Shown one piece after another: positions 25,337 through 27,780 of a stretch of DNA of 64,000 bases; the stretch's first letter is position 1; each line of letters opens with the position of its first letter. The position numbers and the translations under genes were made by a program. The stretch covers positions 485,223 to 549,222 of the forward strand of contig NZ_ML214300.1 in the NCBI RefSeq assembly GCF_004785955.1, given 5' to 3'. Origin of the DNA: Halostella litorea (GTDB lineage: Archaea > Halobacteriota > Halobacteria > Halobacteriales > Natronoarchaeaceae). The notes under the pieces are model-generated. The model was not told where the DNA came from. It worked only from the letters and a program-made list of their open reading frames with translations, and ran no database searches.

Positions 25337-25412
25337 CGGTTCCCTCACCGTGGCCCCGGGTTGAAACTCTTTATCTTCCGACCGGCCGCCAGTGTCGCCA
25401 CGAACGGCAGTC

Positions 25413-25418
25413 CTTATG
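25413..25418 (+). promoter_or_regulatory. TATA-like box of ribH
   Basis: CTTATG is centred 27 bp before the ATG at 25443, which supports that start over the in-frame ATG at 25392 and predicts a leaderless transcript. Confidence 0.5.
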
Positions 25419-25442
25419 TTCGCGGTCCCGGAACCGTCGGGT

Positions 25443-25844
25443 ATGGTAACGCTCGGACTGGTGGTCGCGGAGTTCAACGCTCCGGTCACCGAGGAGATGG
25501 AGCGGTCGGCGCGGGCGGCCGCCGACGAGGCCGACGCCGAGGTCGCGGAGACGCTCTACGTCCCCGGCGCGTACGACTCGCCGCTGGCGGCCGACCGGCT
25601 GGCCCGCCGCGACGGGATCGACGCCGTCGCGGTCGTCGGCGCGATAATCACCGGCGACACCGACCACGACCAGGTGATCGCCGAGGCGGCGTACGGCCGG
25701 CTCACCGACGTGAGCCTCGACCGCGACACGCCGGTCACCCTCGGGATATCCGGCCCCGGGATGAGCGCCGACGAGGCCCGAGCGCGTACCGACAACGGCG
25801 CGAAGGCGGTCGAGAGCGCCGTCCAACTCGCCGAGGAACTATGA
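25443..25844 (+). CDS. ribH: 6,7-dimethyl-8-ribityllumazine synthase
   Basis: RibH condenses 5-amino-6-ribitylaminouracil with dihydroxybutanone phosphate in riboflavin synthesis. The 133-residue archaeal-type protein shows MVTLGLVVAEFNAPVTEEM, the ETLYVPGAYDSPLAADRLA substrate loop, VVGAIITGDTDHDQVIAE with the catalytic His, and TLGISGPGMSADEA. Its TGA stop overlaps the ATG of the aminotransferase gene (ATGA), so both are translated together although the pathways differ. Confidence 0.93.
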   Translation: MVTLGLVVAEFNAPVTEEMERSARAAADEADAEVAETLYVPGAYDSPLAADRLARRDGIDAVAVVGAIITGDTDHDQVIAEAAYGRLTDVSLDRDTPVTLGISGPGMSADEARARTDNGAKAVESAVQLAEEL

Positions 25845-27037
25845 CCATGGACTTCGCCAACAGAGTCGAACGAGTCGAACCGAGCGCGACGCTTGCGATC
25901 AGCGACAAGGCGTCCGAACTGGAGGCAGAGGGCGTCGACGTCGTGGACCTGAGCGTCGGCGAACCGGACTTCCCGACCCCAGAGAACATCGTCGAGGCCG
26001 GCCAGGCCGCGATGGACGCGGGCCACACCGGCTACACGCCGTCGAAGGGCATCCCCGAACTCCGCGAGGCGATCGCCGAGTACCTGCGGGACGACTGCGG
26101 GCTTGGCTACGAGGCCGACAACGTCATCGTCACGCCCGGCGGCAAGCAGGCGCTGTTCGAGACGTTCCAGTCGCTGATCGACGACGGCGACGAGGTCGTC
26201 CTGCTGGACCCGGCGTGGGTCTCCTACGAGGCGATGGTGAAGCTCTCGGACGGGAGCGTCTCCCGCGTCGACACCGCTTCCCACGACTTCCAGCTGGAGC
26301 CGGCGCTCGACGACCTGGCCGAGACGGTGTCGGACGACACCGAACTGCTCGTCGTCAACTCGCCGGGCAACCCCCACGGCGCGGTGTACTCCGACGCCGC
26401 GCTGGAGGGCGTCCGCGACCTGGCCGTCGAGCACGACCTCACGGTCATCTCCGACGAGATATACCGCGAGATCACCTACGGCGCGGAGCCGACCAGCCTC
26501 GGCACCCTCGACGGGATGGCCGAGCGCACGGTGACGGTGAACGGCTTCTCCAAGGCCTACTCGATGACCGGCTGGCGGCTCGGCTACGTCGCCGCGCCGG
26601 AGGCCCTCATCGACCAGGCCGGGAAGCTCCACTCCCACTCCGTCTCGTGTGCGACCAACTTCGTCCAGCACGCTGGCGTCGAGGCCCTGGCAAACACCGA
26701 CGAGGCCGTCGCCGAGATGGCCGAGGCGTTCGAGGAGCGCCGAGACATGCTGGTCGACCTGTTCGCCGACCACGGCGTCGACGTGGCCACGCCCGACGGC
26801 GCGTTCTACATGATGCTGCCCGTCGACGAGGACTGCGCTGCTCTGGAAGAGCAGCGAGTTGGAGACGGTGAAACCGTCGACACCGCGTGGTGCGAGGGCG
26901 CCATCGAGGACGCCCACGTCGCCACGGTGCCGGGCAGCGCCTTCGGCACGCCGGGCTACGCCCGCATCTCCTACGCCAACAGCAAGGAGCGGCTCCGCGA
27001 GGCCGTCGACCGGTTGTCCGCGGACGGCTACCTGTAA
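25841..27037 (+). CDS. Class I/II pyridoxal-phosphate aminotransferase
   Basis: The 398-residue protein resembles aspartate/aromatic aminotransferases of fold type I. Motifs are LSVGEPDFPTPENIVEAGQA, the PLP-phosphate-binding VTPGGKQALFETFQ, NSPGNPHGAVYSD (Asn to the PLP ring), ISDEIYREITYG (Asp/Tyr) and the Schiff-base Lys in VNGFSKAYSMTGWRLGYVA. The expected MMLPVDED..AWCEGAIEDAH region contains an extra segment of about 17 residues (AALEEQRVGDGETVDT), encoded by two perfect DNA hairpins. The ATG at 25847 is an equally possible start. Substrate not fixed by sequence. Confidence 0.93.
   Translation: MTMDFANRVERVEPSATLAISDKASELEAEGVDVVDLSVGEPDFPTPENIVEAGQAAMDAGHTGYTPSKGIPELREAIAEYLRDDCGLGYEADNVIVTPGGKQALFETFQSLIDDGDEVVLLDPAWVSYEAMVKLSDGSVSRVDTASHDFQLEPALDDLAETVSDDTELLVVNSPGNPHGAVYSDAALEGVRDLAVEHDLTVISDEIYREITYGAEPTSLGTLDGMAERTVTVNGFSKAYSMTGWRLGYVAAPEALIDQAGKLHSHSVSCATNFVQHAGVEALANTDEAVAEMAEAFEERRDMLVDLFADHGVDVATPDGAFYMMLPVDEDCAALEEQRVGDGETVDTAWCEGAIEDAHVATVPGSAFGTPGYARISYANSKERLREAVDRLSADGYL
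26838..26878. repeat. Double-hairpin insert within the aminotransferase gene
   Basis: Two perfect inverted repeats lie nine bases apart inside the coding sequence: CTGCTCT-GGA-AGAGCAG (26838-26854) and GACGGT-GAA-ACCGTC (26864-26878). They encode the in-frame segment between VDED and AWCEG. Codon choice here is less G+C-rich at third positions than in the rest of the gene (GCT, GAA, GTT, GGA, GGT, GAA, ACC). The arrangement resembles a palindromic element inserted without breaking the frame. Confidence 0.7.
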
Positions 27038-27075
27038 CGCCGCGCGTGGGTCCCTGTCCGGGCGTCAACCCGCCG

Positions 27076-27780
27076 TCAGGGCCGCTTCGCCTGCAGTATC
27101 GGTATTTCGTCGATCTTCTCGTCGTCCAGCGCCGCCCAGTCGACGCCGTCCGGTTTTTCGTACTCGCCTCCGGTCGCTATCGTCCGCTCGGGCGTGACGA
27201 CGTGGTCCATCGGCACGTCGTGGGCGTCGTGGGGGAGGACCTCGTCGGCGACCTGTAGCTCGTGGACGGTCGTGACGACCGTCGTGTCGTCGCCGACCAG
27301 TCCGACCTCGCGCAACAGCGCGAACTCCAGGTCGCTGTACCCCTCGCCTTTCCCGATCCGCGCGCCGCGGTCGTCGACGGCGACGCTGCCGGAGACGATC
27401 AGGTCGACCGCGCTCATCCCCTCGGGCGCGACCTGCACGCCGAGTTCGTCCGCGCCGGAGATGGTCGTCGCCTCGTCGTAGTCGTCGATCCGCTCGGGGT
27501 CGAGTTCGAGGAAGGGCCGCTCGTCGGCCAGCCGCGGGACCGCGACATAGACGGTCTTGCCCGCCTCCAGCGCGCGGCGGCGGACGGGCCGCTGCGGCGA
27601 GTCGGGGTTCGCCTTGATGGCGTCGGCGTCCTGCCACGCGTCCAGGTCGGTCAGCCGCTCGGCCGCCGCTTTCGCCCCGGCGAAGTTGGGGATCCGGCCG
27701 TGGGGCGGGAACGGGAACCGCGCCTCGCCGCTCTCCTCCAGGTCGTCCCAGACGCGCTCGCGGAGTTCCTGCTTGTCCAT
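27076..27780 (-). CDS. 5-formyltetrahydrofolate cyclo-ligase family protein
   Basis: The 234-residue protein matches the family that converts 5-formyl-THF to 5,10-methenyl-THF with ATP. It shows an N-terminal basic/aromatic region (PFPPHGRIPNFAGAKAAAER), DSPQRPVRRRAL, and the nucleotide-binding ARIGKGEGYSDLEFALL, matching the family's glycine-rich G-x-G-x-G-Y-x-D motif. The C-terminus is longer than the bacterial enzyme. It is convergent with the aminotransferase gene, 38 bp away. Confidence 0.88.
   Translation of the reverse strand: MDKQELRERVWDDLEESGEARFPFPPHGRIPNFAGAKAAAERLTDLDAWQDADAIKANPDSPQRPVRRRALEAGKTVYVAVPRLADERPFLELDPERIDDYDEATTISGADELGVQVAPEGMSAVDLIVSGSVAVDDRGARIGKGEGYSDLEFALLREVGLVGDDTTVVTTVHELQVADEVLPHDAHDVPMDHVVTPERTIATGGEYEKPDGVDWAALDDEKIDEIPILQAKRP

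Follow-up and report, generated by a model that had tools for sequence, protein, structure and literature searches.

In-frame double-hairpin DNA elements in protein genes of haloarchaea

We found that an in-frame insert in an aminotransferase gene, located in the 64-kb stretch of haloarchaeal DNA analysed here (the window), is one copy of a haloarchaeal family of double-hairpin DNA elements of ~45-57 bp which occur in unrelated protein genes. The family is very probably an archaeal analogue of the Rickettsia palindromic elements (RPE), that is, a set of short mobile palindromes which are tolerated as acidic loops and have spread into unrelated genes. The patchy occupancy of the insertion sites suggests that the elements are mobile.

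An extra segment with two hairpins in an aminotransferase gene

The host gene and the features of the insert are listed in Table 1. Comparison of the AlphaFold model of the host protein with solved structures identified the Thermus aspartate and plant prephenate aminotransferases as its nearest solved folds. The open reading frame directly upstream (25392-25844, plus strand) overlaps the alternative start of the aminotransferase gene and, as read by eye, is presumably 6,7-dimethyl-8-ribityllumazine synthase (RibH). A sequence-only reading of this DNA had described two perfect hairpins within the aminotransferase gene that leave its frame unbroken, and this was confirmed, with stems of 9 and 6 bp. 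It had put the extra segment at about 17 residues (26838-26878); comparison with orthologues upheld the presence of an insert but set it at 15 codons (26834-26878). The lower G+C content of third positions relative to the flanks, also described in that reading, was clear, with a GC3 of 0.47 in the 15 inserted codons against 0.95 across the remaining gene, and no 15-codon stretch elsewhere in this gene has a GC3 below 0.67. Folding of the 60-nt stretch in comparison with dinucleotide shuffles gave z = -4.0 as RNA and z = -4.7 as DNA. When the gene was codon-shuffled 2000 times, 4 of the products contained a comparable hairpin pair, and the 64-kb window has no second place where a perfect hairpin of at least 8 bp has another of at least 6 bp no more than 15 nt further on. 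The GAC codons that enclose the insert may be a 3-bp target duplication; the empty site is itself a natural run of Asp codons, from which such a duplication cannot be told apart.

Table 1. Positions of the host gene, the insert and its parts in the window
Feature	Position	Strand	Evidence
Host gene, class I/II PLP aminotransferase, 396 aa	25847..27037	+	Aminotran_1_2, Pfam E 4e-70
In-frame type A insert, 45 bp, CAALEEQRVGDGETV, residues 330-344	26834..26878	+	Absent from most orthologues; R2 match
Hairpin 1, 9-bp perfect stem CGCTGCTCT/AGAGCAGCG, 3-nt loop GGA	26836..26856	+	Folding, covariation over 25 copies
Hairpin 2, 6-bp perfect stem GACGGT/ACCGTC, 3-nt loop GAA	26864..26878	+	Folding, covariation
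Left flank codon GAC (Asp), pairs with 26879-26881 as GAC...GAC around the insert	26831..26833	+	Empty site GAC GAC GAC GAC in G003

The AlphaFold model of the host protein has a mean pLDDT of 92.6. The insert connects the strand at residues 321-325 to the helix at residues 344-356 and falls within the block of lowest confidence (70), as expected for a tolerated loop in the predicted structure. A sequence search of the PDB with the insert peptide and with that of the related element type B, described below, gave no match, which means that the loop is not seen in any solved structure. Rfam covariance models gave no match up to E 1 against positions 26500-27200, and a search of a phage collection was also negative.

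Aligning homologues, the check proposed by the sequence-only reading, showed that the insert is missing from most haloarchaeal orthologues. This comparison took in 40 named haloarchaeal loci besides the orthologues of related genomes, and the majority read ...PVDDDDQAWCEGAI... at this position. The insert is absent from the sister genome G003, whose protein is 95% identical to that of the window's genome (G000). The elements are of two sequence types, A and B, which share the two-hairpin layout. Within the family, just two of the eight further genomes, G002 and G008, have the type A insert at this site, and occupied and empty sites can be paired as G000/G003, G002/G001 and G008/G006. In other lineages the same codon gap holds a different double-hairpin element, type B, in at least nine genomes, for example TPSASDASGGEPRA (G021), SEALRASDASDDESRA (Salinadaptatus) and PRSGSSASGDGPRA (G028, close to Halorubrum), while Haloglomus carries an intermediate form, DCEALRASGTGDEPV. 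A class-wide scan of 394 genomes with a degenerate flank pattern identified inserts at the gap in 17 genomes: three of type A, two of the Haloglomus type, nine of type B and three without such hairpins, so that 14 of 17 are double-hairpin inserts. On a maximum-likelihood gene tree of 80 rows, built with the insert left out, occupancy requires 12 changes, at least 11 of which are forced by well supported branches, and its clustering is no stronger than with shuffled labels. This pattern points to frequent gains and losses at the aminotransferase site. Other inserts without such hairpins, such as DTRVEGDGEEAQDV, were seen at the same gap in Halosimplex carlsbadense (L102) and in G184, G293 and G323.

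Copies in unrelated genes, reading frame and stem pairing

Exact searches of the window's own genome with a 71-bp DNA sequence and a 22-aa peptide returned the window copy alone. The sequence-only reading had looked to the exact 41-bp sequence and its peptide for further in-frame copies; these occur only once, but in-frame relatives were found by structure and degenerate consensus. A search with the type B core pattern located further genes that carry copies; two of these, for endonuclease III (nth) and dihydrolipoamide dehydrogenase, lie in the window's genome. We then used two covariance models, R1 for type B (trained on 12 sequences, mainly coding copies) and R2 for type A (trained on four). 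With R1, the window's own genome yielded five clear copies (E < 1e-4), and 34 of 59 related genomes yielded 157 matches at E <= 1e-5, with up to 16 copies per genome, the richest being G002. The predominance of coding copies in the training set of R1 biases the ratio of coding to intergenic matches. R2 gave 64 matches at E <= 1e-3 in 29 of the 59 genomes, of which the weakest are doubtful and some may be places that match both models; its match at the window copy (26831-26881, 80.5 bits) is to a member of its own training set. Copy numbers of the two types are correlated across genomes (rho 0.61). Of 295 genomes drawn from the phylum, 42 carry R1 matches, and every one of these belongs to the window's own order, a range to which lower GC outside the order may contribute.

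The unrelated conserved genes that host the elements include nth, lpd, purK, trpA, uvrC, a topoisomerase gene and SBP56. Pfam-checked hosts further include an ArgZ-like enzyme, a chlorite-dismutase-like protein, an argininosuccinate lyase type lyase, AICARFT, a class I tRNA synthetase and an AMP-binding enzyme. Type B was also found in the same frame in RefSeq-annotated plasmid genes of Halorussus and Haloterrigena, encoding a thioredoxin family protein, ppc and a P-type ATPase. A pattern for hairpin 1 run over the class gave mostly chance matches, its reversed control pattern being commoner; through it, a Cys-rich protein of G199 was recognised as carrying type A. The insert in nth also sits in a stretch of variable length. 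Its site is occupied in G000 and G002, empty in G003, G004 and most others, and in G001 it holds an apparent decayed remnant, GGGEARAGDRD.

Several other arrangements of the elements were observed. The nth genes at L308 (G058) and L311 (G051) carry long composite inserts of about 30 residues or more, for example ASQRDARSASGARRERREGLDDANGEAVSGRSRA, which look like several fused or nested elements, and at G079:C1:2553411-2553554 three type B elements in head-to-tail order repeat exactly every 48 bp, forming a tandem array. Relatives of type B with longer hairpins (GTGAACGAAGTGAAC, GTGCGAGTGAAGCGAGCAC) are mostly extragenic (L207, L212, L244, L246, L263, L267), which suggests a wider family of intergenic repeats in haloarchaea. 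At L168, L249 and L255 elements lie immediately 3' of stop codons, a position in which they could serve as transcription terminators or replace them.

The coding frames of the flanks of 93 type B copies were determined with a codon log-odds score blind to the element itself. A strict test for continuous coding was passed by 65 of the 93, representing 48 gene families, and all 65 are read in one orientation and in one of the six possible frames, giving SEARSASExSSGDEPRD. No copy was found to code in any of the other five frames, though the consensus is stop-free in all of them. Nine of the 93 R1 matches are noncoding, and others lie just past stop codons. Both flanks of 21 of 24 strong type A copies are coding in the frame of the peptide DSVAPEEQREGDGEAVD, the remaining three having one unclear flank; none of the 24 is in another frame. 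In two copies (L283, L284) the match register is off by one base and the peptide is unchanged. In types A and B alike, the frame used is the most acidic of the six.

The stems are also maintained. Across 94 type B copies 99.0% of helix cells are paired, with 98 double-change cells against 16.7 when shuffled and 2-10 with the partners slid; across 25 type A copies 97.8% of cells are paired, with 65 double-change cells against 17.7 and 2-6. These alignments were fitted to the models and hence lean towards structure, but the training sets are small (12 and 4) and the excess is large. At the aminotransferase site, every stem difference between G000 and G008 is a compensated pair, and the remaining differences lie outside the stems. 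In hairpin 1 a T:A pair has become C:G (GCT>GCC with GAG>GGG, E>G), and in hairpin 2 a T:A pair has become G:C (GGT>GGG with ACC>CCC, T>P), each pair consisting of one silent and one amino acid-replacing change. Since the compensated pairs replace amino acids, pairing is kept at the expense of the peptide.

Proposed spread of the elements and alternative explanations

We propose that the machinery that spreads the elements recognises their palindromic DNA or the RNA made from it, and such recognition would explain why pairing is preserved. The stems could be kept either by selection for mobility, through recognition by a mobilising enzyme, or by the correction of quasi-palindromes through template switching, which would require no selection; our data do not separate the two. 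The element would land in many places, and the survivors would be those copies that are located in loops and read in the hydrophilic acidic frame. The salt-in acidic proteome would provide the setting for such selection on the peptide, which is probably translated and retained as a tolerated part of the protein. A site may gain an element by repeated insertion and lose it when homologous recombination brings in an empty allele. Where genomes share an occupied site, the insertion could in some cases be an old one, passed down or exchanged together with the gene, and not a fresh hit.

The fixed frame could also have arisen at the insertion step. Insertion itself might be strand- and frame-biased, always sense and in one frame, for example through mRNA or by coupling to transcription or translation, so that the elements would be coding-compatible selfish elements whose sequence came to encode a salt-adapted acidic peptide without loss of the hairpins. 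We regard this as unlikely.

Y1 transposases are a natural candidate for the mobilising enzyme. The palindrome-associated transposable elements (PATEs) of Haloquadratum are IS605-related and include a 52-bp form consisting of the termini only (PMC3119063), and this is the reason to consider these enzymes. The two hairpins, one per half, might then be the left and right ends of a minimal IS200/IS605-type element moved by Y1, a possibility that would refine rather than replace the RPE-like explanation. However, the number of Y1 transposases is not correlated with that of the elements (rho -0.15), which speaks against a Y1 transposase as the mobiliser. In addition, 20 of 34 carrier genomes lack a Y1 transposase, and none was detected in G000 or in the richest genome, G002. 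IS200/IS605 derivatives insert beside a fixed target of 4-6 nt without duplicating it; in the flank profiles no fixed upstream target motif was visible, only a codon-like acidic-loop bias, and empty sites are too few to fix the boundaries of the element. Hairpins that serve as IS200/IS605-type ends are a rather improbable refinement.

A further possibility is that the elements have been domesticated: in molar salt the acidic disordered peptide might make the protein more soluble or more stable, or hairpins in the RNA might tune translation speed or mRNA stability. The single, most acidic frame would fit such a role, as would stems preserved in place and the occupation of the same sites in different families. 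At both sites examined closely, in the aminotransferase gene and nth, near relatives live without the element, so it is not needed there, and the nth remnant in G001 looks like decay. We therefore consider domestication distinctly improbable.

The hairpins in conserved enzymes, and the existence of occupied and empty pairs, are also what would be seen if the element were removed before or during translation, as an archaeal bulge-helix-bulge intron or by translational bypass of the kind known for the mitochondrial byps of Magnusiomyces, leaving a protein without the insert. A removed segment need not keep a frame or encode anything, but all strictly coding copies share one frame and the same acidic peptide, which makes splicing or bypass very unlikely. 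In addition, the minimum-energy fold is two separate hairpins, with no closing helix with two bulges as in such an intron. An ordinary indel with coincidental hairpins, to which the variable loop and its hairpin-free inserts (Halosimplex, G323) could point, is refuted by the copies in unrelated genes and scarcely credible given the multi-copy family, the covariation and the uniform frame.

Relation to known palindromic elements and significance

The similarity to RPE suggested by the sequence-only reading was thus supported by the absence of the insert from most orthologues and by its in-frame relatives in many haloarchaeal genes. RPE are protein-coding palindromes of about 105-146 bp found in frame in many genes (PMC2229807), and the Wolbachia palindromic elements are also protein-coding palindromes (PMC10969869). 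The haloarchaeal elements resemble both in being short, multi-copy palindromic DNA which is found both between genes and, in frame, within unrelated conserved genes, and which encodes a family-typical peptide (PMC2229807, PMC10969869). They differ in having two small hairpins in about 45-57 bp rather than a long stem-loop in about 100-150 bp, and in being archaeal and GC-rich with an acidic peptide. In its behaviour the family resembles RPE, but this does not make it one of them, and we do not claim homology.

Other known systems share some of these features. The PATEs of Haloquadratum walsbyi are likewise haloarchaeal, non-autonomous and palindromic, with no clear target duplication, but in the portion of their description consulted are not presented as in-frame coding inserts (PMC3119063); the new elements showed no link to Y1 transposases. 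REP and BIME repeats with RAYT transposases are also small hairpins, sometimes paired, in many copies. By definition REPs lie outside genes, and the majority have a GTAG or CGTC tag at one end (PMC3733652). In contrast, the new elements are mostly intragenic and in frame, and their consensus ends, GCGAGG and CCGCGAG, carry no GTAG or CGTC tag. The mitochondrial byp elements of Magnusiomyces are short hairpin-bearing mobile inserts inside genes as well. Byps are skipped by the ribosome and have no frame requirement, whereas the frame of the haloarchaeal elements is fixed. No earlier description of haloarchaeal coding palindromes was found in open PMC text, and the family is apparently undescribed so far.

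Rickettsia and Wolbachia are bacteria whose genomes are reduced and drifting. In free-living archaea, whose genomes are big and recombine, a large independent family would show that mobile DNA can make new in-frame segments of conserved enzymes beyond that setting. The many natural pairs with and without the insertion provide material for testing how proteins accept new loops, what moves short palindromes and why a single frame survives. For annotators, these elements explain the recurrent 'SEARSAS..SGDEPRD' and 'VAPEEQR' segments inserted in haloarchaeal proteins.
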